DNA of 64,000 nt. It comes from Candolleomyces eurysporus (lineage: Eukaryota; Basidiomycota; Agaricomycetes; Agaricales; Psathyrellaceae). Shown one piece after another: positions 8,762 through 33,111 of this stretch; position 1 is the first letter of the stretch; each line of letters opens with the position of its first letter. The stretch covers positions 1-64,000 of the forward strand of contig JANBPK010000933.1 of the NCBI GenBank assembly GCA_027579435.1, written 5' to 3'. Both the position numbers and the translations under genes were made by a program. Below the pieces are notes generated by a model. The model was not told where the DNA came from and did not search any database. It saw nothing but the letters and a program-made list of their open reading frames with translations.

Positions 8762-10421
8762 ATGGCCTCCGCTGATATTCCTGGAATCAGAACCTGCACG
8801 GAGGAAGAGTATCATCGTTTTCGCAACGGTGACGCTTCCTTACATTGTTTGAGCCGTGGCCAGAGCATCGTCTTGGCGGTGAGTTGTCTCTTACATTTCT
8901 ACTGGGAGGAGGGACGAACACGAACACGAAGCGACATCGTCCCATAGTACTCCAATCAACAAATGCTGATACGCGCTGATCGCCACTTCAGATGGTGATC
9001 CTCGCGGGATTCGCTTCGCTTTTAGCGGTACTATTCGTATTCAGAATCATAATCGTGAGTTTATTTCCATTCGAAGTGATAAACCTTACGTGCTCATATC
9101 CGTGCAGCGCAATGTTATCAGACAGAGGCGACAACATCAGAAATGGCACATATTTGTTGACCCAGTAGACGTGATTATGGTATGCAACTTCGCTGTGTCA
9201 ATGATGGTTGGCCTACATTGAATCAATCTTTTCTCCCTTTCATCCCAGTTCTCTGTGTTCCTTGGGGATGCTATTCAAGCGCTAGGCGCAATTGTTGGCA
9301 ATGTCAAATGGGTGAATGAGGGCAAAGTAGAAGTTGGCGCTTACTGTACTGCGCAAGGTGTGTCCGGTTACCCTTCATTGGCGCCATTGGAGACTTACTT
9401 TCTATTTCAGGAGTGCTCAAGCAACTAGGGGAAACCTCGGTTCCCTTGAACATCTTGGTATGCCTTTTGGCTTGCGCCCTGTTTTTAGCATGAACTAAGT
9501 CAATGATTCATCCCGTATACTATCCAGCTGCTCGCTATCTACACCTTCAGAGGGATATGGATTGGTAGGGCATCAGAGTCTTTGCTAGTGACCAAGTTTC
9601 TTGTTACAGGAATATGGGGCTTCGTTATCCTCATGATTATTCTTGGAAACGCTCTACACTCACACGAAGATAAACAGCATCGTTATATAGCACCGGTTCC
9701 GGTGAGCAAAACTTTGGATTGTGTCGCTGTACTTCTGCTGACAAAGTGAAAATCACATTGACGGAATCACAGTACTGGTGCTGGATTGGCCAGTCATACA
9801 GGCAATGGCGTCTCTGGGGAGAATATTTATGGCTCTGGTTGACTTTGGTGGTCTCAATCCTGACCTACACCCCTCTATTCTTCTGGAGCCGTGGACAAAT
9901 CACCCCACATCCCAACTCATGGTGGAGATTCAAATTTCGACGTGTCAACTCCGTTCAAGGTGCCGGTTCAGGCTTTCCTAAGGAGCTCCGAAATCAGGCT
10001 AAAATCATGCTCGTGTACGTGTCCTCTCCCTAGTACTCAACAGCTCAGCGCGACAGCTCAAGGCATCTAATCTAATTCAATCAGATACCCGATGGTGTTT
10101 TGCATCACTGTTCTCCCATTTAGCATTGTTCGTTGGATTCGGTTTGAGCTAGAACGTAACAGACTTGACCAGGTGACGGTTCCTTCAGCTCTAGAATTTG
10201 TCTCATTGTCGTTGCTTGTTCTAAGCGGAGCATTCAATGTTACCCTGCTCTTGACGACACGGCCAAACACCGTTCTGTTTGGGAGGCACAAATCCGATGC
10301 GATGGACTCGTTGCCGCCACCAAAGGTCCAGGATCATGAAGGAGCTGGATCATTAGAGGTGACTGAATCTACACCTTTGCCGATGCAACAGGTTCCTCGG
10401 GGTCAGTTTTCTGATGACTGA
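8762..10421 (+). CDS. cAMP-receptor-like G-protein-coupled receptor
   Basis: Nine exons (8762-8878, 8992-9054, 9108-9179, 9249-9357, 9411-9457, 9528-9564, 9610-9701, 9773-10014, 10085-10421) join without any frame break to 371 residues. Seven hydrophobic segments are visible, among them MVILAGFASLLAVLFVF, FSVFLGDAIQALGAIVG, GIWGFVILMIILGNAL, EYLWLWLTLVVSILTYTPLF and LEFVSLSLLVLSGAFNVTLL. The order YWCWIGQSY, then EYLWLW, and a late TTRPNTVLFG are typical of fungal class cAR/Git3-like receptors. The hydrophilic C-tail is probably cytoplasmic. By family knowledge such receptors sense carbon or unknown ligands and signal through Galpha and cAMP; the ligand here is unknown. Intron positions are supported by frame and membrane-segment continuity. 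Confidence 0.82.
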
Positions 10422-11190
10422 TGGTATTGTATCGCTTTGGCTAGACTTCCCTCCCGTTGATAGTAAGCCACAGATACCGATAGCCAATAAAATCGTAACG
10501 AGAATCCATTGTGGAGTACAAACTAATGTATAGTAGTGTGGCTTGAATCTAGTTAGGTCCCTCGCTTGGTAGATAAACGGGATTGGGTACTAGTATGCGC
10601 TCGAAATCAATCTGTTCTGGTGGCACTTGGAATGACCATGGTTTAGGCTGCTGTGCAGCGTGACCGCGGATCAGGCAGAGTCAGGGCTGGCCCATCGGCT
10701 CGATCCTTGGCTTTGACAATTAATAACTGCCACTGATCATGATAAGAACGGCCGTGATTTGTGGTCGCGATTTAGTTAACAATCCTTTCACGGTCATACA
10801 AGGGCCCTTGGAATGGGGTAGAGCCGGCGCCTCATTCATCTCTTGCTTTGTCAAAGTTGAGATGAACAAGATCGAACACATTCTATTCAGTCACGCTAAG
10901 CGGTCACCTTAGGCAATGCATAAATCCCTTACTCAACTACCTACCACCTGAACCACTCAGCAAGATTTTGTTGAACTTTTTTGTTTTATCCAGACAGCTG
11001 GCGTAAACGTGTCACCATCCTGTCCTTGGTTTGCTCTGAGTTTCTACCCCGCAGCGGACCAAGCTCATGTATATCTCTTGGGGAGGGGCGGCAAGCCGCC
11101 ATGTTTCCAAGTGGCTCAAGTTGGAGCTTGTTCAAGGATTCAACGACCACTGTCATCGATCCTATCGCTCCACTGAAGCCTTTTGCGAGG
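10422..11190. other. Intergenic, nothing recognised
   Basis: AT-rich unique sequence after the GPCR stop. No coding frame with plausible composition and no repeat recognised. Confidence 0.4.
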
Positions 11191-11263
11191 CTCCATCGTC
11201 AAGAGAACAGATCGACGTCTGGTTAAGCTCTCATCTTCGAAGCGCCAATGTACCTGAGCCCCT
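11191..11263 (+). repeat. Short dispersed repeat, copy 1 (partner 25738-25817)
   Basis: GCTCCATCGTCAAGAGAACA through CGACGTCTGG, AAGCTCTCATCTTCGAA and GCGCCAATGTA to TGAGCCC matches 25738-25817 with a few substitutions and one small indel. The partner lies about 130 bp upstream of the GIYGxW membrane gene, so this copy may be the remnant of a displaced promoter of that family. Confidence 0.6.
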
Positions 11264-11298
11264 GCCCACACATACATACAAGTTGCAACGCGCAAGAT

Positions 11299-11450
11299 TC
11301 CCGTACTCGAGTGCCTTCACTATACAAGGCAAATCGGTACAAGCGGAATCTGACAGGATACGAGTTGAGGCTGTATGTGTCTATTATAAGGGCCTTTTGT
11401 AAGATGAGCACATTTCGCTAATATGTTAGACTTTATGACACAGAGCCAGC
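11299..11450 (+). repeat. Diverged dispersed repeat, copy 2 (partner 4150-4310)
   Basis: Same ordered words as the copy at 4150-4310, on the same strand, with scattered substitutions and short indels. It is followed immediately by the remnant of the membrane-protein gene. Confidence 0.6.
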
Positions 11451-11454
11451 GTTT

Positions 11455-11760
11455 GGGGTGGACTATCGTGTTTGTGGTGCAGGGCCTGCTGACAAAAATG
11501 GAAAGCTGAGACTGATGCGGCGACGACGACGAGAGCGACGGGAGAGGACTATTCAAGGAACATGATTGACGGAAGCCTTATTGTAAGTAGATACAGTAGG
11601 TACTATATATACTAAAAGTCTGTGGAGTAAATGATAGGAGTTTGTGAAACAGATGATGAAATTCTGGAGTGATGAGAGCATCGACATAATGATACTCGAC
11701 ACCTGCTTTACATGAGGGTTGAGCGGGATATNGAGGATAAGGATACGTGTTGAAAGGAGA
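11455..11760 (+). pseudogene. Remnant of the 3' end of the 5241-7916 membrane gene
   Basis: Two blocks match the end of the membrane-protein gene in the same order. 11461-11495 matches 7843-7880 (TCGTG, TTGT, GTGCAGGG shared). 11723-11758 matches 7885-7920 (GGATAT, GAGGAT, AGGATACG, TTGAAAGGA shared, including the stop). About 225 bp of unrelated sequence separates them. The second block contains an N at 11732. This is a decayed, interrupted duplicate of the last exon. Confidence 0.6.
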
Positions 11761-11956
11761 TGATTAGTCGTGTGTGGTAGTTCGGATAATAGACCTCTTC
11801 ATACGCGATGTGTAAACTAGCCTTTCTGAAAAACTAGCTTCAATAAGTTCTCGATCAGTACTCTTATATGATCAGGCGGTAGTAGGAGATCCTCCTCGTC
11901 CCCATGAACGGTTGCCAATCTATACTCAAGGTGATCACAGAACTCCGGTCGATTTC

Positions 11957-13931
11957 TCAAAGCTCGAATAAAGTTGTCGAATCCGGGTGGACGAGTTGCA
12001 AACGTTTCTGCAAAATGTCGGCCACCTCGTGGTAGTGGATGCGAAGGAGCCTTGAGAGATCTCGGTTAGAACCTGATTGCAAAAAGTGCATGAAGGCTCC
12101 TTCCACCGAGCATCGAAGATGTGAAACGGCATCATCGAAGAAAGGAGCAGGGGTGGGAGGCGACTTATTCGCCACGATGAGGTTCATGGTAGGATGATAT
12201 AGATCATTGACACAGGCCGATATAGATCGACCAGTAAGAAGGTCGTCACATTCGAGCTCATGAACAAAGCACGCGGTGAGGTCAACTGCAAGGAGCGCTT
12301 TGACCGTTGAGGAAAGTTCAACTTCATCGGAGGGTCTCCATTCCCTCCAGTACCGTACCCATGACCCCAACGCGAATTGGAGATGTTCCTCGGCAACCGG
12401 ACTATCCAAGGTGATAGGCGACAGCGTCTTCAAACAACCCGCCAGTAGCCTTCCGACCCCCTTCTTCAAATCGATTGTCACATCCGGCGAAAGTTGGGGA
12501 TGATCCAGCAGGAATTCGGGAAAAGATGAATGATAGAACATGCCAAGCGTGGAGTATTCGTGACCCTGAGCGCTTAAGGAAATCACCGCGTGGAGGGGTC
12601 GAATGGCCTTGTCAAATGTTCGCCCGCAGATTCGCTGAAGGACGTGGAGGGCATCCAGGGCAGTTTTCGTTCTAAATATCGAATGTACAGAGCGACGAAA
12701 GGCTAGGATGTCTTCGAGAGCCTCAACCATGGTTCCCTGACGTGCTCGGGGGCATGACAGTAAGATTTGGCGATAGAGTTCGTGAAGGGAGGAGAAGGGA
12801 GTCGAGTGGGCGAGATCTGGAGTGGAGTTGAACCAGCGGTGCAGGATATCTTGAAGTCGTTGACGTGGATCGTCGTATGGGTCATCGATATGACGGATAA
12901 CGGTGGCCGCGTAGAGCATGTGGCCGCCTGTATTGAACAGAAAGTCTTGAACGAGATCTTCCCCAGGCCACTTTTCATCGTCACTTGGCTGGGGTTCCAA
13001 GCTCTCTGCAATTCGAGCCAGCTCATCCCTGACAAATACCTCCACGTCCTTCATATGATCCCCGACTTGATAGAGATCCAATATCTCTGTTGTGGCTTGG
13101 AACGACTTGGACCCGATGTGTTGCTTGATCCACGGCTCCGGCCTACTGAGAATGAGAAAACAGAGGGGAAGGTGATGGGACTGAAGAGTGAGGATGAGTT
13201 CTAGGACGCGAACTTGGACGCGTTCTTGATCTTCCGCATACTGCTTTTCGACTCGAGACTGCTGATCCGAGTTGATGCACTCGTCAAGCCCATCGATGAT
13301 AACGAGTCGATGAGGCATGTCGTCCAACTCTCCCAGAGATTTGAACGGCTCGACGATGAGCTTCATTAGCTGAATTTCGAGCGCCTTGTTGAGGACCATC
13401 GGATTTCGCTTCACCGCCGCTTCGATATGAGGGGCGAGCTCGGGGATCGACATGGTGAACTGATACGCCAACGTGATGATGAAGTGTTTAGGACTGTTGC
13501 GCTCGGGGGACGACCTCCAGAAGAAGAATGTGGCTCCAACTGAGTTAAAGTTCAGGTCCGTACGGCTCTCCATCTTCTTCGACACCGTCCCCGCAACCGC
13601 AGTCTTCCCGTAGCCTGCAGGGGCATGGACCCACATTATTTTCTTCTCCGGTGGGATTTCGAACCCATACCACCCCTCGATCCGAGATATGACGACGTCG
13701 CGAGTACCTTCGTGACACAAGGGTGGCGGGTACCGCTCTTCTGAGTCGTGCATAGCACTCGTGGCTGAGTGCTTGTGTAGATATTGCAGGGCTAAGCGAT
13801 TATCAGCCAATTGGGCTCACCTGGCACGACACAACTATTCACTTACCGTCTCCATCCGAGATGAAGGTGTTAAAAGTTGGGTTCGCTACGAAGTGTTTGG
13901 CGTTCTTGAAGTATGATACGTTACTGGACAT
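11957..13931 (-). CDS. NACHT-domain NLR-like protein, family 1 copy N1
   Basis: Two exons on the minus strand (13847-13931 and 11957-13791) separated by a phase-1 intron, 639 residues. Exon 1 encodes 28 residues with the motif YFKNAKHF and ends ISDGD. The large exon begins ALQYLHKHSAT and has a P-loop (APAGYGKTA), the family segment GATFFFWR, ITLAYQF, and a Walker B site (LVIIDGLDEC), then a helical C-terminal part with YHSSFPEFL. By family knowledge this is a STAND NTPase of the fungal NLR type, linked to nonself recognition and regulated cell death. No WD40, ankyrin or TPR repeats follow. Oddity: other copies continue with a conserved PAFDN segment. Here a shifted frame carries a PPGFDN version and stays open to a stop near 11817, so the annotated C-terminus may result from a frameshift near 12010. 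Confidence 0.85.
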
Positions 13932-15714
13932 GATGGTTCGAAGAAGAGATGATCGATGAGGATCGATGGATCAAGTGCTCAGCCACAGCAAAGTCACAGC
14001 TTTTACAGCTTTGTGTGGGCCGTGACCAGAGCGCTTATCCTTCTATTTAGAGCAATCCCGCCCAGATCACCTTCATTTCTTGTTCGTCTTTCAGCACCCC
14101 CTGGCTCCTCTCCTCGTTACGATGCTTCGGTTTAGCTCTCGCAAGTATTCGATCTACCAGTTCAGTGCAGGTGGATATCCTCGATTCTTACTTTTTCACC
14201 CGACGTCACGGTGGTTCTCAAGTCTAGATAGCCAGTACAAAGACTCGGTTGAAGTCGAAGTACATCCATGCAACCTATAGGGGNAAAAAAAGCTTCATCA
14301 TCGGGAATTTAATGACAATGACGCCACGCGTTACGCTCGCCGTAATCTGTGCGGGATAGGTGTCCTGGAGGAAGGCGAAGCTGGTGCGAGCGGAAACCCA
14401 GTTGGAGTCGGGCCAGCTTTCCGCGGGGGAGGGTGGGCACTGAAAGCACATTTGAGCGTCTGGGTTGACGACGTACTGTGATATTATTTAGAAAGGTCGA
14501 CGCATTAGCGGCGATAGATTCTTTTCCAATCCTCCCTTTGGCGCTTCTTTGATATGGCGGGATGGCAATTTCAGCAAGTGAAGTGCTCTCCCTTGAGCAC
14601 TAGGGTGGTCATTGTATTTAAATACTCAACGCCAAGCTCCGATCCTTAAGAGAGGCGTTTGGTTTGAAGGAAAGTACTCACGTTGATATCATCGCAAAGT
14701 ACACTCTTCTCGCGTTCTTGTAGCATCCGAGTGGGTTGTTGGTGAACAGAGTCCTTGGTACGGAAAGAAGTTAGAGTGTTCCTCCGGATAACCGCACTCC
14801 ATTCCGCGTCCGGACGGTCCGAACCAAGGTTGCTAGCTTCTCCTTGTCAGTATTTTAAATTTCAGTAAGAAAGGCCTGCGTTGGAGAGGGATCAATCAAG
14901 AGGGTTTGACCACCCGAAGGAACGAAATCGAGAGTCGAACAGGGCAGCAAGGATCGCGAGTTGGTCCAACCTCGCTACGATGGAGCTGATGCCAAAAATC
15001 AACTCTTGAATTAATACTACATCATGGAGAGCATCCAGATTCATGTCTGTCGTATTTTAGCTCACCACAATCAATGAACGTCACCACTACTGCGACAATG
15101 TGGTGACAGCTGGCTGTAAATTCAAGAATGGGCAGTCGCGGTAATTGCACGCGTCCTTCTTCCGACATGCGCGTGCCCCTGCCATTGCCCAAAAAACATA
15201 CACTTGGGACGAAGTATATCCCAAACCTTCTTCAAATGTTCCAGGGGGTGGAGATTGCTTCATCTTTCGAATCCACGATGTATTCATACAAATCTTGGTG
15301 ATTGCGCTGCCCAGGGACCTCGTGCCGACGACCATGTGCAAAATGGCGCCTTCAGCCGGTCATCAGGGGACATAAAGGCTTTGGTCATTCTATGACGCGG
15401 GATAGCAGACATGGATGTCCTTGGAGATCGCTTGCAAGCGTCCGAGAGGCAAACTGAGTGCGTGCTATTCTTTGTAAATATAGGCACATCCAAGAGGTAA
15501 TCCTGTCCAGATTTTTGAAGATGAGATTCGTGACGATGCGGCATCTTTAAGGGGACGCCAATTGCCACAAAGTTGAGGGTTTAATTCGAGGCAGGCCAAA
15601 ACTAGTTTGAATTTTTCGTCTGATGGCTCCTGCTCAGGTTGCATCTCCCCGAGAAACCGAGTACTCCAGGAGAAGCGATAGTAGGATGCGTAATAAGTTG
15701 TCGAAAGAGATCAT
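13932..15714. other. Intergenic, no gene recognised
   Basis: Contains the N1 promoter at its left edge, then about 1.6 kb without supported coding sequence or recognised repeat. An N lies at 14284 beside an A-run. Confidence 0.4.
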
Positions 15715-15721
15715 GACGTGT
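15715..15721 (+). repeat. 7-bp target duplication GACGTGT, left outer copy (partner 25696-25702)
   Basis: GACGTGT abuts the left end of element copy 1. Its partner abuts the right end of element copy 2, 10 kb away, rather than the right end of copy 1. Confidence 0.7.
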
Positions 15722-16746
15722 CACCTGGTCCTGGCCGGGTGGTGCAATAATATACTTCAATTGTTGTAGTAGTCCTGGTGCACGAATCACAACGGTGGTA
15801 CTCTTCCTCAATGGTAGCTATTTCTGGTATATCATCAATGTTGCACTAAATATCTATTGCGCCTTACACCAGTCACTGTCGCTAATAATGCACCACTTAC
15901 GCTGGCTTGCACTACTTTGATGTAATCTGCCGCAGCGCCGCTCCCCGCCTTGCGCTACTTTGATCGACAATCCCGCTTTCCCGCCATTTTGCCGCGCCTG
16001 CCAGCGCGGCGGTGTGGCAGGCGGCAGGCCGTACACCTTCTGCTCGGTCTATAAAGTGATGAATTCCTGGTCCTGTCTGTCTAATATCATAAATATAAAC
16101 CCATGCTTTGCTTTGGTATTTTGAGCATGATATTTGCAAAGAATGCGTGGATGGTGATGAGCAGCCCTTTATGAAGATAGTTAAGCACAAAGAAGGACTT
16201 CCCTGAGTGTATATAAGTGACTAGTATGTTTCATTAGGCCTTCACTGGGTTTTACAAGACTGCAATACAAAACTTGACTTGTGGTTCAGGGTGGCACATG
16301 TAATGTTAGGCCAGGTTTATGACTTTGGAGATGCCCAACTTTAAAGAAAATAGATTGAAATTTTGAACAAAAGATCGAAAAATTAGGTCACCACAGTGAC
16401 TATTTCCAACAGTTCTTTTAGTTATCGGGCAACACAGTAGCATGATATACTGAAATCTATGTTTCTTCCTCGAGTCAGCGCACCTTTATATGAGCTCTGA
16501 TTGGCTGGACATTTTGATCTCCGTCCCGTTGATCAGGATTCACCACCCCCCCGTAATCTTTACGGCCGATGCAAGACCGATGCACCACTTCAGAGGTCAT
16601 CAGTGCATCAGTCATCAGGAATACAATAATGCACCACTCTGAGTCTTTGCCCTGCCTCGGGCATGCTCGACAACTGTTGTGAATCGTGCACCACACCACC
16701 CACTTCAATGGTTGTTGTTTGTGCACCATTCCGACAGTATCAGCTG
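15722..16746 (+). mobile_element. Undescribed ~1.03-kb non-coding TIR element, copy 1
   Basis: Runs from CACCTGGTCCTGGCC to the right end GACAGTATCAGCTG. The reverse complement of the right end aligns with the left end at about 17 of 25 positions, so the termini are imperfect inverted repeats. Both ends carry several subterminal TGCACCA/TGGTGCA words, as in many cut-and-paste transposons. No ORF long enough for a transposase, so it is non-autonomous. Copy 2 is nearly identical. The right flank is not a repeat of the left flank: it is CCTCCAA, inside exon 1 of an NLR gene. I cannot place it in a superfamily; a 7-bp duplication is uncommon. Confidence 0.8.
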
Positions 16747-16753
16747 CCTCCAA

Positions 16754-18933
16754 GTCGGGCCATGGCAGAAATCAGTCGATCGCTCACGATCTACAGGCTT
16801 TGGAGGCCCAGGGCCCTTCCTTGCCAGACAACTCGAATGGGCTCACACCATCCTCAGGAGAGCAATCTCATGTAGCGGTTGTCAGGGCTGAGAACACAGC
16901 CTTACCCTCGCCCATGGAGCCTTCAACATCCACATCAATGTTTTCGAGAGCGCACCATTTCAACGTCGGCGGCATCCACATCCACTCACCCCCACATACT
17001 CATAATGGTCAGGATAAATCGATAGATGGTGAGAGGGTTCGATGAGATTAGTAGCTCGAGGACATCCGCTAACCCTGTGGCATGTCTACCGCTCAAGGCT
17101 GGAAGCTGCTCTTGGAGAACATAGCTTCGAATGCCTTCTACGACTCAGGTGCTAGGTTCGACCCTCCAAAGTGCGACGAAGATACTCGCGTCGAGGTCAT
17201 CAGCGAAATTACGGATTGGATCAACGATCGGGGCGGTCCCCAACGCTTGCTCTGCATGACTGGCGCTGCAGGAGCAGGGAAGTCAGCGCTACAGCAGACA
17301 GTTGCCGAACGTTGCGCCCGCTCGGGAATCCTAGGCTGTGCATTCTTCTTTTCTTCCCAAGACCCCACTCGAAACGACCTTTCCCGCATCATACCGACCA
17401 TCGCATGCCAATTAGGACAGCACGATCCTACGCTACAAGACTCTATCAGTAAATTTGTCGAAAAAGACCGTCTCATATTCACGAAAACCATCAGGATCCA
17501 GATAGATGCCCTCATCGTGCGCCCATTCAAACAGCTTTGCGCGAATGGCGGCTTGGATCCCAGCAGTTTTCCCCACGCCATCCTCATCGACGGCCTCGAC
17601 GAGTGCTCCGGAGAAGAAAAACAAGCAGAATTGCTGTCCAGCATCAAAAGTTGCCTCCTCGACAACGACCTACCCTTTCGTATTTTTATCGCCAGCAGAC
17701 CGGAATGGGCCATTCGAAGTGCGCTTAGTTCGGAGCCCCAGGGTTATCTCCATTCATCGGCGTATCATATTCAACTCAGCGACGAGTACGATGCAACAGA
17801 CGACATTCGTCGCTACCTGTGGAGGCGTCTTCGGGACATCGGAAGTCGAAGCCACGATCCTCGAGCGCGATCCCAGTCATGGCCCAGGAAGGAAGACATC
17901 GAGAAGCTAGTTCAGGCTGCATCCGGGCAGTTCGTGTACGCTGCGACGGTGGTCAAATATGTTTCCGAACGTCACAGTTCTCCGGTGGATAGGCTCCAGA
18001 CGGTCGTTGACTGGACACCAGACGACGGACACCTCGCAAGGCCATTCGAAGCTCTCGATATCCTATACGCAAGCATTCTGTCCGCCGCGAAAGAGCTGTA
18101 CGAGGCGGTCGATACGCATCAAGGACGCAATTTTTTGCTTCTCCTGAGGGCTCATCACATCAACTCTGACTTTCGTGTAGGGAATGAGGGTTTCTGGGCC
18201 CCTGATTTCGACGTCCTCCTCAACCTAGAAAGCGGGGCTCATGATATCCTTGTTTCTGACCTACACTCTCTCGTCGTATTCCATCGTGCTCCTGCTACCC
18301 CTCCGTCGTTACCCTGCATTAGCATGCGTTTCTATCACCGGTCGTTCTCCGAGTTCTTGGATAGCGAAAATCGTGCCAAGAACTTCTTCATCGCGGAAGT
18401 GCAGGCTAAGACATACGTTTTGGAGACCGTTGTGCAAGGAATCGATCGGTTTTCCTTAGATCCCAGTGAGTCGACAACAACACCTCGATGTATTCATCCA
18501 ACTTATTCTTCAGGCGGTACGAGTGCAACTTCAGGCAGTTCTTTCCAGGATGCACTGCTGGCCCTTTTTCTGTATTCCGACAAAGGCGAAACATTTAGTG
18601 GTCAACAACTTCTTTCTTTAGCACGCAACGATGGATGGAGAAAGTTTGATCAAATGCTACCAACGACGGGTTTTTATATTGAGTTCTTGAGGATGATATA
18701 CGTGATTTTTGGGCGATTGAAAGTAAGCCCATCATCTTGGAAAAGGGAAGCTCGCTGACTATCTTTCTTTGCCGCCTACGCAGAATGAACTCAAAGAACC
18801 AGGATTGGCGGATGCTTTGAGACCTTACTATGGGAAATGGAGGGAGTTCATCAAAACGCGGCTCGGGGAGCACGAATGGCATTTCCTGCCGCCGGAGGAA
18901 CTGGAAGANGGGGGGAGCGAAGTAGGAGTCTGA
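16754..18933 (+). CDS. NACHT-domain NLR-like protein, family 2 gene A, body (5' end displaced)
   Basis: Exons: rest of exon 1 to 17028, then 17098-18465, 18514-18722 and 18784-18933. Exon 1 carries RAHHFNVGGIHIHSP and ends in phase 1. Exon 2 begins with GWKLLLENIASNA, then P-loop CMTGAAGAGKSALQQ, FFFSSQDP, IIPTIACQL, Walker B ILIDGLDEC, IFIASRPEW and FYHRSFSEFL. The start of exon 1 is missing here: it is cut by the element at 16746, and the matching 5' piece is at 24575-24651. Joining the two at the shared CCTCCAA gives 2079 nt, exactly 693 codons, with no stop. As it stands, a frame open from 16686 inside the element reads into exon 1 and could supply a substitute start. The final exon contains N 18909, which fits the frame as a base. 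Confidence 0.8.
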
Positions 18934-18959
18934 AGTAGTAGTCGAATACATACCGTGTG

Positions 18960-21180
18960 TCATAGGATCCATGTTAGGGGCGTTGATTTCCTGGCCCTGG
19001 ACCAGAAACAGAAGAAAGGTCCAAGCTCCGACGCTTGTTCTCGTCGACGGTTGATGGCAGAGACGGCAACCCTATCGCTCAAGATCTACAGGCCTTTGTC
19101 ACAGAGCCGTCCTTGCCAGACAACCTGAGAGGGAGAGAATTCTCATGTGCCCGTTGTAAAGGCTGAAACCATACCCTCACCCACCGAACCTTCAGTATCT
19201 ATATCAATGTTTCCGGGGGCACACCATTTCACCGTCGGGGGCATTCACATCGACTCATTCTAGCATATTCAAAACGGCCAGGGTAAACCAATAGATCATA
19301 GGAGCGCTCAATTTTCCGTTAAATCTGTTGCATATGCTAACCCTTTGCCTATTGCTAAAGGTTGGGAGATACTTCTAGACAAGATAGCTCTAAATGCCCT
19401 CTATGATTCCGGAGCTAGATTCGACCTTCCGAAATGTGACGAAGATACTCGCGTCGAGGTCATCGGCGAAATCATGGATTGGGCCAATGATCGAGATGCT
19501 CCTCAACGCTTGCTCTGCATGACCGGTGCTGCAGGGTCAGGCAAGTCAGCATTACAGCAGACAATATCCGAACGTTGCGCTGGCTCNAAAAATCCTTGGT
19601 GGAACGTTCTTCTTTTCTTCCCGAGATCCCACTCGAAACAACCTCTCTCGCATCGTACCAACCATCGCATGCCAGCTAGGCCAGTACGACCCTACACTCC
19701 AGGACTATGTCAGAAAAGCTATCGAAAACGACCGTCTCGTCTTCACGAAAACCGTCAGAACTCAGATGGATGTCCTCATCGTTCGCCCCTTCCAATAGTT
19801 TTGTTCGAGTTGCGATTCGGACCCTGGCGGTTTCCCCCACGTTGTGCTTATCGATGGCCTCGACGAATGTTCCGGAGAAGATAATCAAGCAGAGTTGCTC
19901 TCCAGCATCAAAGATTGCTTCCTCGATAACGATCTCCCCTTTCGTATTTTTATCGCCACTCAGCCGGAATGGGCCATTCGAAGTGCACTCAACTCGAATC
20001 CCCAGGGTTACCTCCACCAATTGGCCTATCAAATTCAGCTCAGCGACAAGTATGACGCAACGAACGACATTCGTCGCTATTTGTGGAGGAGACTTCAGGA
20101 CATCGGAAGTCGAAGCCATGATCCTCGAGCCCGATCTCAGTCATGTCCTAGGATGGAGGATGTCGAGAAGCTGGTTGTCGCTGCGTCGGGGCAGTTTGTG
20201 TATGCTGCAATTGTGGTTAAACACGTCTCGGAGCCCCGTAGTTCTCCGGTGGATAGGCTTCAAACAGTTGCTAACTGGACACCAATAACAGGTCAGCTAG
20301 CGAGGCCGTTTGAAGCTCTCGACGTGCTCTATGCAGGCATTCTGTCCGCCGCAAAAGAGTTGCTCCTTCTCAGGGCCCATCACATCAATGATGACCGCCG
20401 TGTATTCGACGTGACCTACGAAGCCAATACCTTTGGCGAGTTTCTCAATCTAGAAAGAAGTGCCCATGATCCTTGTTTCCACTTACACTCTCAGGTCGTG
20501 TTTTATCAGCACCCTAGCTTCACGCACATCTTCATGAAAATGCATTTCTATCACCAGTCGTTCGCTGATCCTTGGATAGCGAACCTCGTGCTAAGAGCTT
20601 GTTCGTCGCGGAAATGCAGGTTAGAGCGTACGTTTTGGAGGACGTTGTTCAAGGGACCATTCGATTATCCTTAGAGACCAGTGAGTCACCAAGACTTGGT
20701 ATGTATCTGTGTGCTTATTCTCCAGACAGTACAATTACAATTTCAGGCAGTACTTTCGAGAAGTATGCACTGAAGGCCCTCGTGACGTATTCCAACAAAG
20801 GAGAAGCGCTTGATGGTCAAGAATTTCTTGCCTTAGCCCGCGGCAATGGATGGAGAAAGTTTGACCAAATGGTACCAAAGACACATTTTCATCGTCCTGT
20901 CCAAGCTTACTTTCTGGAGATGATAAATGTTATTATGCAACGATTGATAGTAAGCCTATCATGTTGGACACAAGGGAGCTTGCTGACTGATTTTGTTTAC
21001 CGCTTGTGCAGAATGAGCTCAATGAGCCTGAGTTGGCAGATGCCTTGAAACCTTACTGTGGTAAATGGAGGGGGCTCATTGAACTGCCTCTTGCAGAGAG
21101 GGGGGAGGAATTTCCACCCCTGGATGAATCAGAAGAGTGCCAAGGGGAAAAACNACAGGAAGAGTCAGATACCTCAGCCC
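18960..21180 (+). pseudogene. Family 2 NLR pseudogene (gene B)
   Basis: Homologous to genes A and C along its length but broken. The exon 1 region (about 19009-19290) lacks a usable start and has a stop just after the AHHFTVGGIHI motif. The NACHT exon follows from about 19362. N 19587 breaks the frame, and dropping it restores the reading GSKILGGTFFFSSRDP. A TAG stop sits at 19796-19798 just after IVRPFQ. About 12 codons are missing at SAAKEL/LLLLRAHH near 20355, and a frameshift lies near 20565 in the YHQSF segment. P-loop and IDGLDEC are still readable. The gene is dead by several independent lesions. Confidence 0.8.
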
Positions 21181-21640
21181 ACAGAGCATCACGCTTTCAT
21201 CTTCATGATGTCCTTTTATTGGTGCATTTCATCTCCTGGTTCTATGAATCCAACCTTTCCGGTAGCCACAACTCTGATAGACAAGTTCAAGGAGGCCGTC
21301 TCAAAGAAATAATGGCCAAGTCAAGGCCCCAGCAAACTTTCCCCAAATGACCCGACGAAGGCCTTTGGTCGGGCCGGGATGGGTGCTCAGGTCTGTTTCG
21401 ATGTCCAAAATACCTGCGCTCTCTGGAATGCCATCTCAGTAGAGCCGTGAGATTAGCTGCGGCAGTGAATACTGCTACCACTGCTGGCCTCGGTCCAGGG
21501 TAAGTTTGGCTCCGGGTAGCATCTAATCAACATGGGCGCCTATCACGCGCCATCTGTGAGAGACCGAGCGTGGGTACGTACGCGTGCCTCAAACGGAATC
21601 CCGGCGCCACCCAGCTCTTGCTCGGCCCCACGTCACGAAG
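21181..21640. promoter_or_regulatory. Intergenic with the 5' flank of gene C
   Basis: The last 110 bp (GACCGAGCGTGGGTA, then CCCAGCTCTTGCTC) match the flank at 24488-24574 in front of the displaced 5' end of gene A, showing that the two promoters are duplicates. The first 300 bp hold nothing I recognise. Confidence 0.5.
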
Positions 21641-23940
21641 ATGGCCTCGGGCTCGAAACCCAAGAAATCCGGCTTCAGGGCCAAGCTCCGACGCTTGTTC
21701 TCGCTGTTCACCTCTAAGTCGGGTCATGGCAGAAATCAGTCCAGCGCTCAAGATCTACAGGCTTTGGAGGCCCAGGGCCCTTCCTTGCCAGACAACTCAA
21801 ATGGGCTCACACCATCCTCAGGAGAGGAAGCTCATGTGCCCCTTGTGAGGCCCGAGAACATGCTATCCTCATCCATGGAACTTTCAACACCTGTATCAAT
21901 GTTTCCGAGGGCGCACCATTTCAAAGTCGGCGATATCCACATACATTCACCCCCACATACTCATAATGGTCAGGATAAATTGGTAGACGGTATGAGCATT
22001 CAATGGGATTAATAGTTTAAACACATCCGCTAACCCTGCGGCGTATTTGGCGCTCAAGGCTGGAAGCTGCTCCTGGAAAACATAGCTTCGAATGCCTTTT
22101 ACGATTCAGGAGCTAGGTTTGACCCTCCGAAATGCGACGAAGATACTCGCGTCGAGGTCATCGGCGAAATCATGGATTGGATCAACGATCGGGACAGTCC
22201 CCAACGCTTGCTCTGCATGACTGGTGCTGCAGGGGCAGGCAAGTCAGCGCTACAGCAAACAGTCGCCGAACGTTGCGCTGGCTCGGGAATCCTAGGCTGT
22301 GCATTCTTCTTTTGTTCGCAGGACCCCTCTCGAAACGACCTTTCCCGCATCATACCGACCATCGCATTCCAATTAGGACAGCACAACCCCACACTCCCGG
22401 ACTATATTAGGGGAGCTATAGAAAAAGACCCTTTTATCTTCACGAAAACCGTCACAATCCAGATGGACGCCCTCATCGTACGCCCATTCAAACGGCTTTG
22501 CGCAAGCGGCGGCTTGGATCCTAGTAGTTTTCCTCACGCTATCCTCATCGACGGTCTCGATGAGTGTTCTGGGGAGGAGAATCAAGCAGCACTCCTCGCG
22601 AGCATCAAGCGTTGTCTCCTCGACAACGATCTCCCCTTTCGTATTTTTATCGCCAGCAGACCGGAATGGGCCATCCGCAGTGCGCTGAACTCGGAGCCCC
22701 AGGGCTATCTCCACCAATCGGCCTATCATATTCGACTCAGCGACCAGTATGACGCAACGAACGACATTCGTCGCTACCTGTGGAGGCGGCTTCGGGACGT
22801 AGGAAGGCGAAGCTACGACCCTCGAGCACGATCTCAGTCATGGCCCAAGAAAGAAGACGTCAAGAAGCTAGTTCGGGCTGCATCCGGGCAGTTTGTGTAC
22901 GCCGCAACGGTCGTAAAATATGTTTCCGAGCGCCGCACTTCCCCAGTGGATAGGCTTCAAACAGTCGTCAACTGGACACCGGAGCAAGGTCAGCTAGCGA
23001 GGCCGTTCGAGGCCCTCGACGTGCTTTACGCACGCATTCTGTCCGCCGCCAAAGAGCTGTATGAGGCGGTCGACACCAACCAAGGGGGAAATTTTCTGCT
23101 CCTTCTCAGGGCTCATCACATCAACTCTGACTATCGTGTCGCCGGCACGAAATGGGACGCCCACGCCTTCAGCGAGATCCTCACCCTAGAAAGAGAGGCT
23201 CATGAAGTCCTTATTTCCGACCTACACTCTCTCGTCGTCTTTCTCCCATACCATTTCGTCCCTAGTATATTCATCGAAATGAGCTTCTATCACCGATCGT
23301 TCTCTGAGTTCTTGGATAGCGAAATTCGCGCCAGGAGCTTGTTCGTCCCGGAAACACAGGTTAAAGAGTATGTTTTAGAAGCCGTCGTGCAAGGAATCAA
23401 CCGGTTTTTCTCAGAGCCCGGTTAGTCAACAAGAACACTTGCGATATATGTGTATACTTATTCTTCAGACAGCGCAACTTCAAGCAGTACTTTCGATCGG
23501 AATGCACTGGGCGTTCTTGTGGAGTATTCAGATCAAGGTGAAACCCTTAGTGGTCAACAACTTCTAGCTTTAGCCCACAACGATGGATGGAGAAATGTCG
23601 ATCGAATGCTACCGAAGTCCTCTTTTGCTTTTCGCCAAGGCCCCCGGTTCCTGACGATGATACATGTTATGATGCGACGATTGAAAGTATGCCCATCTCC
23701 TTGAGTTGTATCAGTTGCGGTAGCTCGCTGACATTTTTCTTTCGCTGCCTGTACAGGATGAACTCAGAGAACCTGGATTGGCAGGTGCTTTGAGATTTTA
23801 CTATGGCAAATGGAGGGAGTTCATCGAGAGGCAGCCCGAGGAGGATGGAGGGGGGTACTTNGCTGCCGTCGGAGGAACCGGGAGAGGGAGAGAGCGAAGA
23901 AGAGGAAGAGCCCCAGGAGTCAGATATCTCGGCTCACTGA
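21641..23940 (+). CDS. NACHT-domain NLR-like protein, family 2 gene C
   Basis: Exons 21641-21989, 22059-23420, 23469-23686 and 23757-23940. The start is the ATG before ASGSKPKKSGFRAKLRRLF, a basic N-terminus. Exon 1 then has LQALEAQGPSLPDNSNG and RAHHFKVGDIHIHSPPH, and ends in phase 1. NACHT motifs: GAAGAGKSALQQ, FFFCSQDPSRND, ILIDGLDECSGEE, IFIASRPEWAI. The C-terminal exons carry NDGW and LRFYYGKWREFI and an acidic tail. Total length is 2113 nt, one more than a multiple of three. Removing the single N (23861) gives 704 codons and continues the paralogue's reading frame to TGA 23938-23940, so this is the intact member of the trio. Confidence 0.85.
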
Positions 23941-24574
23941 GCAGTGTTACACTTGTATATTCATAATCAATCCTTTTATGTTAGTGGATCTCATGTTCTG
24001 GTTCAGTCCTCCAGCACTCCACCAAGCTAGAGTAATGTTTGTGATACGATCCACGGTAGAATTTCCTTTACTGCCCCACGTGTCGAGTACGCTGGCGGGG
24101 TTGCATCGCCAAAACCGCTTTGATGTATGTAGCGGTTGAAGTTATTCTACTTTCTTATGCGTCTCAAGCGTCCGAGCCATTGGATAATTGAGAAAAGCAC
24201 AGTAAGAATAATTCACTGCTCAGTGCTCCTTGTCGCGAGCGACATCATCGAAAGGTGCCAAGTTTGTTTCGACCGCTCATAGTAGCCACACCACCGCTGT
24301 TCTCTAACCCGTTCTTCCACTAGCAGCGGATCATTCATCCTAATAGACCTACTTCGATCAGCGGCATCGACATTAATCTCGTGTCTGCCCGACTCATCGC
24401 AAGAGAGGTCTGTACTCCGACAAGCCCAGACTCGACATTGGTCAGCATGGGCGTTTAAATCAGCGCCCAAGAGAAGCTATATGCTCAGGGACCGAGCGTG
24501 GGTATCTGTACCTCATGGCGACCTCGTGGGTCTACCCTCAACCTAGCTCTTCCGCTCTTCCCTACGTCGCGAAT
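23941..24574. promoter_or_regulatory. Intergenic with the displaced promoter of gene A
   Basis: Downstream of gene C. Its right part (from about 24488) is homologous to the 5' flank of gene C and leads into the ATG at 24575. The left 500 bp show no coding signal. Confidence 0.5.
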
Positions 24575-24651
24575 ATGGCCTCAGACTCAAAACCCAAGAA
24601 ATCGGGCCTCGGGACCAAGCTTGGACGCTTGTTCTCGCCGTTCACCTCCAA
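24575..24651 (+). CDS. 5' part of exon 1 of family 2 gene A (detached)
   Basis: ATG followed by ASDSKPKKSGLGTKLGRLF, matching the N-terminus of gene C, up to CCTCCAA at 24645-24651, where element copy 2 begins. The continuation is at 16754-17028, about 8 kb to the left. 77 nt plus 275 nt leave the same intron phase as gene C. In its present place the reading frame runs into the element and stops, so only a short fragment can be made. Confidence 0.8.
24645..24651 (+). repeat. 7-bp target duplication CCTCCAA, inner copy (partner 16747-16753)
   Basis: CCTCCAA directly precedes element copy 2. The partner directly follows element copy 1. Gene C has the uninterrupted site CCTCTAAG at the equivalent codons, so this is the insertion point in exon 1. 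Confidence 0.7.
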
Positions 24652-25695
24652 CACCTGGTCCTGGCCGGGTGGTGCAATAATATACTTCAATTGTTGTAGT
24701 AGTCCTGGTGCACGAATCACAACAGTGGTACTCTTCCTCAATGGTAGCTATTTCTGATATATCATTATTGTTGCCCTAAATATCTATTGCACCATGCGCC
24801 TTACACCAGTCACTGCCCTAATAATGCACCACTTACGCTGGCTTGCACTACTTTGATGTAATCTGCCGCAGCGCCGCTCCCCGCCTTGCGCTACTTTGAT
24901 CGACAATCCCGCTTTCCCGCCATTTTGCCGCGCCTGCCAGCGCGGCGGTGTGGCAGGCGGCAGGCCGTACACCTTCTGCTCGGTCTATAAAGTGATGAAT
25001 TCCTGGTCCTGTCTGTCTAATATCATAAATATAAACCCATGCTTTGCTTTGGCATTTTGAGCATGATATATGCAAAAAATGCGTGGATGGTGACGAGCAG
25101 CCCTTTATGAAAATAGTCAAGCACAAAGAAGGGCTTCCCTGAGTGTATATAAGTGAATAGTATGCTTCATTAGGCCTTCACTGGGTTTTACAAGACTGCA
25201 ATACAAAACTTGACTTGTCGTTCAGGGAGGCACATGTAATGTTAGGCCAGGTTTATGACTTTGGAGATGCCCAACTTTAAAGAAAATAGATTGAAATTTT
25301 GAACAAAAGATCGAAAAATTAGGTCACCGCAGTGACTATTTCCGACAGTTATTTTAGTTATCGGGCAACACAGTAGCATGATATACTGAAATCTATGTTT
25401 CTTCCTCGAGTCAGCGCACCTTTATATGAGCTCTGATTGGCTGGACATTTTGATCTCTCCGTCCCGTTGATCGGGATTCACCACCCCCCGTCATCTTTAC
25501 GGCCGATGCAAGCAATGCAAGACCGATGCACCACTTCAGAGGTCATCAGTGCATCGGTCATCAGGAATCCATCAATAATGCACCACTCTGAGTCTTTGCC
25601 CTGCCTCGGGCATGCTCGACAACTGTTGTGAATCGTGCACCACACCACCCACTTCAATGGTTGATGTTTGTGCACCATTCCGACAGTATCAGCTG
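24652..25695 (+). mobile_element. Undescribed ~1.04-kb non-coding TIR element, copy 2
   Basis: Same termini as copy 1 (CACCTGG to CAGCTG) in the same orientation, with only scattered substitutions and a few short insertions, such as extra bases near 24792, 25505 and 25569. The left flank is NLR exon 1 and the right flank is GACGTGT (25696-25702), the partner of the sequence left of copy 1. Confidence 0.8.
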
Positions 25696-25702
25696 GACGT
25701 GT

Positions 25703-25947
25703 GTTGAGGTCGTCGCGTCTGGGCGGGTCGGTACCAAGGCTCCATCGTCGAGAGAACAGTTCGACGTCTGGTCAAGCTGTCAACTTCGAACTTGAAGCGC
25801 CAATGTATTTGAGCCCATAAATCATGATCCAACGGTAGAGTCGACCGCCGGCCTGATTGAGTTCACCTTCAAACAAGGACATACAACACGCAAGCAACAA
25901 GCCCGCTTCGAGCTGCACAGCCATCAAACCTTCTTTCCTCCCTTAGC
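25703..25947. promoter_or_regulatory. 5' flank of the membrane/coiled-coil gene, with a dispersed repeat
   Basis: 25738-25817 repeats 11191-11263. The rest is the leader and promoter of the next gene. No TATA box recognised. Confidence 0.45.
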
Positions 25948-27528: not shown

Positions 27529-27570
27529 ATACAACGCCTCCCTCTGGAATCTCACCCGCTTGTTGACTTT

Positions 27571-27950
27571 CTAGAATATTGTTCTCATCCCCCCATCTAC
27601 TCATTTGTTTGTGTACCATTTGAAATAGTACCAAAATGGTCTTGAAAAGATACACAGAACGATGATAGCGAGTAAACAGAGCGGCTTAGTTAGGAACTTG
27701 GAAGGGGGTCAAAGGATGGACCACTGACTGATTTCTCGCACACTCTCGGACGCACCCCAATCCAAGTGCCGTAGAATTACCCCTAGCCTCCCATAACGCA
27801 TCGACGTCGTGCTCTAGTGGGTACGTCGCATTGCCATCGCAAGCGTGTTGCATGTCACAAAGCTGTGCTGATCGTTTAATTCTCTAGGGAATATATTGGG
27901 GGGTGTGGTTCATCGAAGACGGTTCCTGCCAGTGAGTCCGAGCCATTCTA
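27571..27950 (+). repeat. Downstream repeat of the membrane gene, with two relic exons
   Basis: 27571-27830 (TCTAGAATATT, TCATTTGTTTGT, ACACAGAACGATGAT, CCAAGTGCCGTAGAATTACC) recurs at 33112-33360. 27781-27945 is a decayed copy of the last two exons of the preceding gene, with the same GT donor, AG acceptor and a GGGAATATATTGGGG start followed by a TGGTTCATCGAAGACG end. Confidence 0.65.
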
Positions 27951-28439
27951 ATTTTCGCAAGGTTGATGATCGAACGTTTTCTTGGTCACACTTCTTCCTA
28001 CTCAATTTACCAATAGCTCTGTATGGCTGTCGATATGATAGGCGAAACAGCTCAAATTTCGGAGGAAGCAAAGTGATGCGGAGCCCGATCCTCGCAGCCT
28101 TCGATCACACCCGTAAGGAGAATTCTGCCGAGTCGCAGTGTCGTATAAAAGCTTGAAGGCGTGTTTCGAGAGGGGGGATGTGATGGCATTTCTGCAGACT
28201 CACCTTACCTTTAATGAACGAATAGGTGTTCCTTGGTATCTCTTCTTTTCGATTGACCGACCCTATGTGCGAATTTGTGTCTTCACTGCTGTTTCGGACT
28301 GCGTACTAGGTTGACTGCTCGGAGTGGTATTCCCTTCGAGATGCGGTGATTTTAGCGTTGGCTGCGGAGGGTGTATGGTAGGATGGGTCGACTACTTTAT
28401 TTAAATACATTGTCGGCTCGGTAATAGCATTGTACTATA
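27951..28439 (+). repeat. Spacer repeat between membrane-gene relic and NLR, unit 1
   Basis: Sequence such as CATTCTAATT, GATGATCGAACGTTTTCT, CTTCGATCACACCCGTAAGG, GAAGGCGTGTTTCGAGAGG, GAGATGCGGTGATTT and TACTATACTATTCGACATCC recurs in the same order at about 31650-32145, 33365-33836 and 36800-37305, each time ending at an NLR 3' end. Confidence 0.75.
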
Positions 28440-30571
28440 CTATTCGACATCCTGACGAGCACGCTTGAACATGTCCATAACCGCTGGTCCACTATCCTCA
28501 AATACGCTATGCAAATCCCGTCGATACACCCACTCTTCAACACTCTCCTCGAGTTTCTTGAAGCAGGTTTCTCGTTTCTCGAGAAGGCCACTCAAAGCTT
28601 GAACAAGATTGTCGAAAGCGGGCACCGGACGATGCTTCGAGATTTCCATCATATAAAGAGACAAGTGAAGTGTTTTATAGTAGAAGTCCAAGCGATGACT
28701 GTTGAAAAACTCGGGATCCAAGACGTGCTGGAAGCATGCGTCCACCGAGGATCGAAAATGCGAGAGTAAGTCTTCAATGAGGGGCGTGAAAACGGGAAAT
28801 GGCCTGTTGAGGACGATAAAGTTGCGATTCGGATGATACAAATTGAAGAGACAACGAAAAAAACCATGATCCAATCTCACACTGTGAACGAAGCAAGCTG
28901 TGAGATCAGCTGCAAGCAACGCTTTGGAGTGAGATGATAGATCAGCGTCTGTGATGGGTTTCAATTGGGACCAGAGATTCAACCAACAATCCATGGAGAA
29001 CCTGACATGTTCCTCGCAGACCTGACCATCCATGGTTATCGCCGACAGTGCCTTTAAACACCCTGCAAGCACCCTGCTGAGACCTCTCTGACCATTGATC
29101 GTGACGTCTGGCAAGGGTTGAGACGTTATTCTCAAGAATTCGGCAAATGAAGAATGATAGAAAAAAGGCGAATTGCTAGAGTTTCCATCATCGTCTCCAG
29201 ACAGGCGGATCACAGCGTGAAGAGGTCGGACGGCCTTGATCCCACGACCGGGTGCTCGCCCGCAGAGGCGATCAAGGATGTTGAAGGCAGCTTGGACCTT
29301 GGTTCGGGGCCGGAATTCTCCTGTAGCCGCCAGTAATTCTTCCAGTACGCCGACCATGGTGGCCCGATTTGCTTGGGGGCATGACCGTAGGATTTGGCGG
29401 TAGAGCTCGTGAAGGGAGGAGAAAGGAGTCGAGTGGGTGAGGTCCTGAGAGGAATTAAACTCGCCTCTGAGAATATCTTGCAGTCGTTGTCGGGAATCGC
29501 CGTATGGGTCGCCGATGTGACGAACAACGGTGGCAGCGTACAGCATGTGCCCGCCAGTTCTCTGCAAGAAGTCTTTCACGGTATCTTCCCCTGGCCACTC
29601 TTCGTCGTCGCCTGGCTGTGGGTCCAAGTGCTCGGCGATTCGAGCTAGCTCAGCCCTGACGAATGTCTCCACGTCCTTTATATGATCTCCGACTTGGTAA
29701 AGATCCAAAGTCTCCGTGATAGACTGAAACGACTTGGACCCGATGTGTTGCTTGATCCACGGTTCTGGCCGGCTGAGAATGAGGAAGCATAGCGGAAGGT
29801 TATGGGAATGGAGAGTGCGAATGAGATCCAGGATCCGGACCTGGACACGTTCTTGATCCTCCGCGTATTGCTTTTCGACGCGCGACTCCTGGTCAGAGTT
29901 GATGCACTCGTCGAGTCCGTCGATGATAACGAGGCGATGCGGCATATTGTCTAGTTCGCCGAGGGATTTGAACGGCTCGACAATGAGCTTCGTCACCTGA
30001 GCTTCGAGCGCTTTGTTGAGGACCATGGGATTTCGCTTCACCGCTGCTTCGATGTGAGGAGCGAGCTCGGGAATGGATATGGTGAACTGATACGCCAAGG
30101 TGATGATGAAGCGCGCAGGGCTGTTGCGCTCTTGAGATGTCCTCGAGAAGAAGAAGGTAGCCCCGACGGGGTTGAAGTCGAGATCCGTACGGCTCTCCAT
30201 CTTCTTTGAAACCGTCCCCGCAACAGCAGTCTTCCCGTAGCCTGCAGGGGCATGGACCCACATGATCTTCTTCGGTAGGACTTCGAGCCCGTACCATCCC
30301 TCGATCCGGGATATGACGACCTCGCGAGTACCTTCGTGGCACAAGGGTGGCGGGTACCGCTCTTCTGAGTCGTGCATAGCACCGGTAGCCGAGTGCTTGT
30401 GTAGATATTGAAGCGCTGCGAGAAGGCAACAGCAATACGATTCATCCACGCTGCCTCGAGTACAAGTAAATGTCCCTCACCATCACCATCTGAGACGTAT
30501 GTATTCAAGTTAAATGTAGTGTTACTTGCTTCGAAGTTTCTAGCATTATTGAAGTAGGAAACACACGACAT
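28440..30571 (-). CDS. NACHT-domain NLR-like protein, family 1 copy N2
   Basis: Two exons on the minus strand (30481-30571 and 28440-30415), phase-1 intron, 688 residues with no frame break. Exon 1 encodes 30 residues with YFNNARNF and ends YVSDGD. The large exon has ALQYLHKHSATGAMHDSEERY, P-loop APAGYGKTAVAGT, GATFFFSRTSQER, IITLAYQFTISIPELAPH, Walker B LVIIDGLDEC, FLILSRPEPWI, YHSSFAEFL, and a C-terminal part with HRPVPAFDNLVQ and KRETCFKKLEESVEEW ending RARQDVE. This is the reference copy of family 1 in the window. It sits tail to tail with the membrane/coiled-coil gene. No C-terminal ligand-binding repeats are seen. Confidence 0.9.
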
Positions 30572-31018
30572 GGTGGTAGTTGGTTGTAGTTGGCGGAAGA
30601 GATAAGGATCAACAATCCAAGCGCCTGGTCCCAAGCTGAGTCGGCGTTTGAAGGCAGTGATCCGCGCCGGCAAGCTTCAAGAGGCTCTGCCAGTGTACTG
30701 CTCTTTACTCAACCAGAATGATAACGCCTCTCTTTCGTGCTCGCAACCTACATGATGACATAAATGGTATTTTCAACTACGCTAACAAACTAATGCATAG
30801 TTCATTGTAGTTTCCATGGACAATCTTGAGCTGAGTCTTGTTATGATAGGGGCGGAGGACAGCGTACGATGATGAATATCAGGAGATCAGAACTAGCATA
30901 CGTGTAAGTGGTAAGCTCAGATATAGACGATGGTTTCTGAGCTCCAACGCAGCGCGCTGACGGGATACGAGCCGTTTACAGTTTCTCGAGTCCACCTTAT
31001 TCGCAGCGATCTTGGTTA
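30572..31018. other. Intergenic, promoter side of N2
   Basis: No coding signal. Contains the N2 promoter on its left edge. Confidence 0.4.
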
Positions 31019-31650: not shown

Positions 31651-32145
31651 TCCCCGTGATATTTCGCGAGATTAATGATCGAATCTTTTCTTCGTTACAA
31701 CTTCTTCCTACTCGATATTACAGACAAGAACTCAAATTCTAGGGAGTCAAAGCAATGCGAAACCCGACCCTCCCAGTCTTTGATCACACCCGTAGGGACT
31801 AGACAGAAACCTGAGTTGCAATGTCGTATAAACTTGAAGGCGTGTTTCGAGAGGGGGGATGTGATGGCATTTCCGCAGACTTGCCTTACCTTCGATGATC
31901 AATCCGTTTGAATAAACGAGTAGGTGCTCCCTGGTATCTTTACTTCTCGATTGACCGACCCTACGTGCGAATCTGTGTCTTCACCCCCTTTGACTACATT
32001 TTAGGTTGACTACTCGGACTGGTATTCCCTTTGAGATGCGGTGATTTTAGCGTTGGCTGCGGAGGGTGTACATGATAGGAAGGGTTGACTACTTGATTTA
32101 AATACATTGTCGGACGCTGAAGCTCGGTAATAACATTGTAATATA
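31651..32145 (+). repeat. Spacer repeat, unit 2
   Basis: Same ordered sequence as 27951-28439, including GAAGGCGTGTTTCGAGAGG, CTACGTGCGAATCTGTGTC and GAGATGCGGTGATTTTAGCG. It ends at the 3' end of NLR copy N3. Confidence 0.7.
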
Positions 32146-33110: not shown

Positions 33111-33111
33111 T

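Follow-up and report, generated by a model that had tools for sequence, protein, structure and literature searches.

The stretch analysed here, called the window, consists of the 64,000 nucleotides at the start of contig C1226 (110,564 bp) of the agaric Candolleomyces eurysporus; in it, two copies of a short mobile element, E, bracket about 8 kb of NLR genes, i.e., genes of immune type. The left copy, E1 (1,025 bp, CACCTGG...CAGCTG, non-autonomous), lies at 15722-16746 and the right copy, E2 (1,044 bp), at 24652-25695, both on the plus strand and thus in the same (direct) orientation. On the outer sides stands the heptamer GACGTGT (15715-15721 and 25696-25702), and on the inner sides CCTCCAA (16747-16753 and 24645-24651), so that the layout reads GACGTGT-E1-CCTCCAA ... 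CCTCCAA-E2-GACGTGT, with no matching 7-mer pair in cis at the ends of E1 or of E2. This crosswise arrangement was first described in an initial annotation made from the letters of the window, and alignment of both element regions bears it out, orientation and flanks included. The two copies had also been called identical, which does not hold: BLASTN gives 95.5% identity (999 of 1046 positions, 23 gap columns), and a pairwise MAFFT alignment gives 25 substitutions per 1,023 aligned bases (2.4%) and 6 gap events, the substitutions numbering 26 when they are counted in a six-sequence alignment. Neither heptamer is rare (on the plus strand of the window GACGTGT occurs five times and CCTCCAA 12 times); the chance that both crosswise 7-mers fall exactly at ends fixed by the alignment is 4^-14, about 4e-9. 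The outer ends of the whole unit are intact in sequence, and no tandem repeats were found in 15.5-26.0 kb. A simple inversion between two elements was rejected, since the two copies run the same way and so do the two duplications.

Between the two copies lie three NLR genes, all on the plus strand, the first of which is cut in two. Gene1 without its first exon spans 16747-18960, with an NPHP3_N/NACHT open frame at 17073-18755; its first coding exon, with the start codon at 24575, is found at 24575-24651, stranded 8 kb downstream of the remaining gene. Through this split gene1 has lost its first exon and its promoter. Gene2 (19053-21350) is degenerate, with a frame change around an N at 19587 and an in-frame stop at 19796-19798. 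Gene3 with its upstream region (21410-24000; start codon 21641; main NPHP3_N/NACHT open frame 22034-23422) has no break in its main frames, as judged from open frames rather than a gene model. In Pfam, gene1 and gene3 match NPHP3_N and NACHT above the cut-offs, and a gene2 fragment matches NPHP3_N below the cut-off. Of the three, only gene3 looks whole. The initial annotation held that the event moves three immune-type genes together; an NLR unit did arrive as one, and the rest of that statement is too strong for one split gene, one broken gene and one unbroken gene.

The block sits among NLR genes of another subfamily, which form a cluster of their own. The frames of this cluster at 11957-13816, 28440-30476 and 34018-35811 are alike in DNA, and the first of them, the one checked in Pfam, matches NPHP3_N/NACHT. 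This second subfamily, which hosts the block, lies on the minus strand at 11957-13816 and 27568-37753, and its repeats are mostly 80-88% alike. NLR genes thus appear to have been carried out of one NLR cluster and into a second one, whose genes belong to a different subfamily.

We searched the whole assembly (GCA_027579435.1; 65.85 Mb in 1,296 contigs) with the flanks of the unit. The two flank matches on contig C1054 overlap by exactly 7 bp, at 156258-156264, and the sequence there (...GAGATCACGACGTGTGTTG...) has a single GACGTGT, with no element, no block and no footprint. A solo E is also absent from this site, the one empty allele found. Because C1054 reads a single GACGTGT without an element, E1, the block and E2 (15722-25695) are jointly one 9,974-bp insertion, accompanied by a 7-bp target duplication. 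The initial annotation had proposed looking for an empty GACGTGT site without the block, and such a site is present in this same assembly. A 54-bp stretch (91% alike) occurs at 11188-11241 and at 25737-25790, near the insertion site at 25696, with a related copy at C1054:160522-160597; it is perhaps a shared promoter piece.

C1054 is apparently the other haplotype of the window region. Collinearity was seen at four probes from 5.0 to 30.4 kb, the comparison being made at the probes only: window 5000-7989 matches C1054:166823-163815 at 92%, 13800-15721 matches 158175-156258 at 93%, 25696-27500 matches 156264-154460 at 95%, and 28000-30417 matches 153984-151557 at 90%, the last 583 bases of that probe being unmatched there. 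The flank divergence between the window and C1054 is 4.1% on the left and 2.5% on the right. The assembly as a whole seems to hold two haplotypes, which would fit the sizes given in excerpts of a genome report, i.e., 70 Mb for this species vs 33.6 Mb for C. efflorescens, although C. aberdarensis, at 60.6 Mb in the same excerpts, is a counterpoint to this genome-size argument (PMC12786890).

An uninterrupted relative of the source of the block is found on contig C87. When the left flank of E2 is spliced to the right flank of E1 and the 7-mer is kept as a single copy, i.e., when the exon at 24575-24651 is followed by 16754 onward, the resulting sequence aligns unbroken to C87:52437-50410 (at 51.7 kb) with 93.3% identity over 2,031 columns, 13 of them gap columns. 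CCTCCAA stands once on C87 at this gene1 site, at position 51736, and the uninterrupted exon 1 with CCTCCAA that had been proposed as something to look for is therefore also present in this assembly. C87 gene3 (54838-51730) is 96.0% identical to window 21549-24651, C87 gene1 (51736-50410) is 95.2% identical to window 16747-18073, and C87 gene2 (50405-48932) is 92.1% identical to window 18560-19996, beyond which identity is 88.0% and then 75.7%. The gene order on C87 is gene3-gene1-gene2, and in the window it is gene1-gene2-gene3-gene1 exon 1. This order, together with the split exon 1, makes the block interior a circular permutation of a C87-like NLR array, opened at CCTCCAA in gene1 exon 1. 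At this exon 1 site CCTCCAA occurs only in gene1, the gene3-type copies of C87 and of the window and a gene on C537 reading CCTCTAA (the scan covered the window, C87:43407-55749 minus a 329-base gap, C348:7780-17187 and C537:1-8304). Substitutions between the block and C87 amount to 3.7-4.8% in the three stretches measured, and C87 is best taken as a relative of the source rather than the source itself.

Two further contigs carry parts of such arrays, whose genes are mostly 74-95% alike. C348 is apparently an allele of the C87 locus (C87:47239-43421 and C348:13389-17187 are 94.9% identical over 3.8 kb, and the downstream flank matches only C87 and C348, at 97%), and a different part of C348 apparently has its allele on C537 (95.9% over 3.8 kb). 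C348 was rejected as the donor; the part read (7780-17187) is without a stretch resembling the exon 1 site. C537 stops at the position corresponding to window 21122, its last sequence resembling the 3' part of gene2, and the similarity of the C87 array starts at the equivalent of window 21410; if C537 and C87 neighbour each other on one haplotype, the array would hold gene1-gene2 units in tandem. The apparent break at window 21410 falls where C87 itself has other sequence. A private join within the block, as circle closure or end-joining might leave, was rejected: the gene2-gene3 spacer of the block is collinear with the C87 gene2-gene1' spacer, i.e., an ordinary array spacer. Identity along window gene1 jumps from one relative to another, which suggests frequent conversion. 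The array contigs C348, C537 and C87 seem to vary in gene number between haplotypes. Upstream of gene3 on C87, 817 bp (54933-55749) are unlike the array parts compared and end in an inverted-repeat-like CCCGCTACTAAAGTAGCGGG beside an N; this piece may represent a further mobile element or a join at the end of the contig.

The element itself is about 1 kb long, with termini of the type CA..TG (CACCTGG...CAGCTG) and, close to the ends, TGGTGCA-type repeats that occur in either orientation. Its inverted repeats are imperfect and lie near, not at, the ends, and the termini themselves show partial similarity when one is read inverted. As for coding capacity, no open frame longer than 126 aa touches E2 and none of at least 230 aa is found in E1. 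The initial annotation had considered that many family members might lack 7-bp duplications; this is not what was found, for four other copies with both ends readable carry duplications in cis, three of them of 7 bp, namely CAAGGAA on C1025 (7 bp), GTTGAAT on C1218 (7 bp), AGCTCGA/AGCTTGA on C1214 (7 bp with one mismatch, the left end shortened by deletion) and GCAACAGG at E3, the copy on C1157 (8 bp). Further E-like ends or interior pieces lie on six contigs (C60, C571, C715, C1286, C1058 and C429), and KDZ transposase domains are found on five of these (C60, C571, C715, C1286 and C1058), about 4-21 kb from the E-like pieces; C429 has no KDZ domain among the matches listed. Genome-wide, KDZ domains are on 72 of the 1,296 contigs among the matches listed. 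With contig sizes uncontrolled, five of six has a chance of 3e-6 if contigs count as equals, and of 4e-4 if KDZ contigs make up 15% of the genome.

Considering the 7-bp duplications, the CA..TG ends and the KDZ domains on five of six related contigs, E is probably a non-autonomous, Kyakuja-like (KDZ) transposon. In excerpts of PMC12730594, two Laccaria Kyakuja families have 7-bp duplications and CA..TG ends and are without terminal inverted repeats, Zisupton and a Puccinia Dileera family have 8-bp duplications, and Puccinia hAT7 elements have 7-bp duplications. A hAT (hAT7) origin of E was rejected in favour of KDZ, as PF05699 is on none of the six related contigs among the 35 matches listed. 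The Kyakuja families treated in those excerpts carry a TET/JBP gene, a trait of the TET+ families that does not define Kyakuja (PMC12730594). Since Tet_JBP is absent from the six related contigs among the matches listed, E would belong to a KDZ group without the TET/JBP gene. The stretch C60:13.4-23.2 kb was tried as an autonomous element and rejected: Pfam gave no transposase in the 6 of 12 listed open frames scanned, no left end or matching duplication was found in that stretch, and the KDZ match lies further on, at 26.7-27.4 kb.

We consider that E1, the block and E2 were inserted as one macrotransposon or composite insertion made by a transposase, a reading to which we give a probability of roughly 0.6. 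In this reading the first step would have been the insertion of E, mobilised in trans by a transposase from elsewhere, in gene1 of a C87-like array. Two copies of that insertion would next have supplied one end each, the left from one and the right from the other, and the transposase would have placed these two ends at GACGTGT with the DNA between them carried along. The second of these copies might have belonged to a further unit of the array, formed by tandem duplication (macrotransposition), or might have lain on the sister chromatid, in which case the re-replicated flanks would have been healed inside the NLR repeats, as in the Composite Insertions of maize Ac. Use of the outer ends of two copies would yield, in one step, a single outer duplication, an empty site free of a solo E, and CCTCCAA on both inner sides. 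E1 and E2 diverge by 2.4% from one another. This is below their distances to E3 (5.2% and 5.8%) and does not exceed the divergence of either flank from C1054, so both copies can stem from a single insertion and the event need not predate the split of the haplotypes. The derived changes, with E3 as outgroup, are balanced between the copies (10 on E1 and 16 on E2, p=0.33), and the figures would fit copies that began to diverge with a duplication about as old as the split of the haplotypes or younger.

Two routes had been named in the initial annotation, i.e., a circle recombining into another element copy and macrotransposition out of a tandem array; the element-to-element unit with a circularly permuted interior stands, and the evidence leans to the transposase route, with the circle less favoured. 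In the circle route a solo E sits at GACGTGT, and a circle derived from the array and carrying one E recombines into it through the 1 kb of homology. Exactly the observed crosswise duplications and circular permutation would follow, and circles formed by unequal recombination are plausible among array genes as alike as these. The route nevertheless demands two independent insertions of a family with at least three close copies, plus the circle; the extra insertion that it requires at GACGTGT is seen in no sequence, and the one empty site found has no solo E. E1 and E2 are moreover each other's closest relatives, as independent insertions would not have to be, and no crossover signal can be read from E1, E2 and E3, the derived sites being interspersed along the two copies. 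As the empty allele is without a solo E and the two copies are closer mutually than to the third, we favour the transposase route and regard the circle as unlikely. Ectopic gene conversion, in which a tandem array with two copies of E serves as template and E-block-E is copied from it to mend a break in a solo E at GACGTGT, would end in the identical layout, with homology supplied by the NLR arrays and by E; of its two prerequisites, a solo E and a tandem donor that bears E, neither was found, and we think this route improbable. We judge it similarly improbable that C1226 was joined in assembly, through E repeats, to sequence of another NLR array. The donor arrays do break near the same gene2/gene3 spacer (at the equivalents of window 21122 on C537 and 21410 on C87), which speaks for such an artefact and counts against an insertion, and four single N bases fall in the block vs 2.6 expected from its share of the window's 21. 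Even so, a circular or tandem donor running from CCTCCAA back to CCTCCAA would still be needed, the two element copies differ at 25-26 sites plus indels and so are not one collapsed copy, and the block, at 3.7-4.8% substitutions from C87, is not the same copy as that array.

Several further points weigh against an insertion made by a KDZ transposase from a C87-like array. C87 is not the direct source: identity along gene2 falls there from 92.1% to 88.0% and 75.7%, window 18074-18559 is missing at the corresponding place, and several 150-bp stretches of gene1 are nearer to other array genes than to C87 gene1. A donor locus carrying E was not found; there is no E at C87, and the assembly has at least three close copies of E (12 of 12 candidates were scored, and the counts are lower bounds). 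No private join marks the event, the gene2-gene3 spacer being that of an ordinary array. One of the four cis duplications, that of E3, is 8 bp long. The KDZ transposase is tied to E by shared contig only, at about 4-21 kb, the contigs of the short copies (C1226, C1157, C1025, C1218 and C1214) are without KDZ among the matches listed, and Tet_JBP is absent among the matches listed on C60, C571, C715, C1286, C1058 and C429. C1054 could, finally, be a close paralogous segment and not an allele.

In bacterial composite transposons, too, two like elements bracket a cargo and move it as a unit; here the setting is a eukaryote, and the cargo consists of host NLR genes opened in mid-gene. A close parallel is provided by maize Ac, for which excerpts of PMC4270019 and PMC9910405 describe the excision of macrotransposons and also composite insertions, with homologous recombination between repeats among the means of healing. 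In the Ac/Ds macrotransposons and Composite Insertions, as excerpted there, the element copies are outermost with donor DNA between them and one target duplication of the element's own length outside, and the inner element ends are still attached to donor flanks, all of which is alike here. The maize cases, in the same excerpts, concern hAT elements followed in pedigrees, in contrast to a KDZ-like element in a fungus and a natural presence/absence between haplotypes; here, in addition, both inner flanks are the two sides of one insertion site, so that we would be going from two elements in maize to two copies of one insertion, a step that we make by analogy. To the Kyakuja (KDZ) elements of Agaricomycetes, as excerpted from PMC12730594, E is similar in its 7-bp duplications, its CA..TG ends and the KDZ domains on its relatives' contigs, and it differs in being 1 kb long without a transposase and in having imperfect inverted repeats near its ends, where the paper's families have no terminal inverted repeats. 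Unlike the TET+ families in those excerpts, the KDZ contigs related to E have no Tet_JBP among the matches listed (PMC12730594). Starships of Pezizomycotina, according to excerpts of PMC12134995, are likewise fungal mobile DNA with host cargo genes, but they are ascomycete elements whose classification centres on a tyrosine recombinase, and none was sought here. In the titles and abstract openings of the open literature searched, we found no description of an event of this kind in fungi, and in the open literature searched no paper treats Kyakuja together with NLR genes.

Elsewhere in the window, a Helitron-like element frame (DUF6570 and Helitron_like_N) lies on the minus strand at 51038-52498, and in the 46-56 kb neighbourhood a minus-strand frame at 46469-47293 matches no Pfam family. 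Retrotransposon-like frames occupy 59737-62917; the frame at 60638-62914 matches the Pol_BBD, integrase core and gag pre-integrase models, and we take it to be of the Ty1/copia type. At 40071-40923 a unit of about 426 bp is repeated directly in tandem, the copies being 88% alike.

The way in which NLR genes get out of a tandem array and found a new one usually has to be inferred from events that are old and blurred. In the present case one assembly contains the filled site, the matching empty site and a relative of the source without the interruption, and the duplications fix the order of events. If the transposase-made composite insertion is right, macrotransposition and composite insertion, which have been shown for Ac in maize, would be extended to KDZ elements and to fungi. 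We put forward more tentatively, as a possibility that we hold to be rather doubtful, that a short KDZ (Kyakuja-like) element may have made a composite insertion in one step from a single insertion site, using the ends of two sister copies while the re-replicated NLR flanks were healed within the repeats of the array, and that through such events these elements may seed NLR array units in other NLR clusters and cause presence/absence differences of NLR genes between the two nuclei of one mushroom. The event would thereby give a concrete route for the spread of NLR genes and for differences between haplotypes in immune-type gene content.

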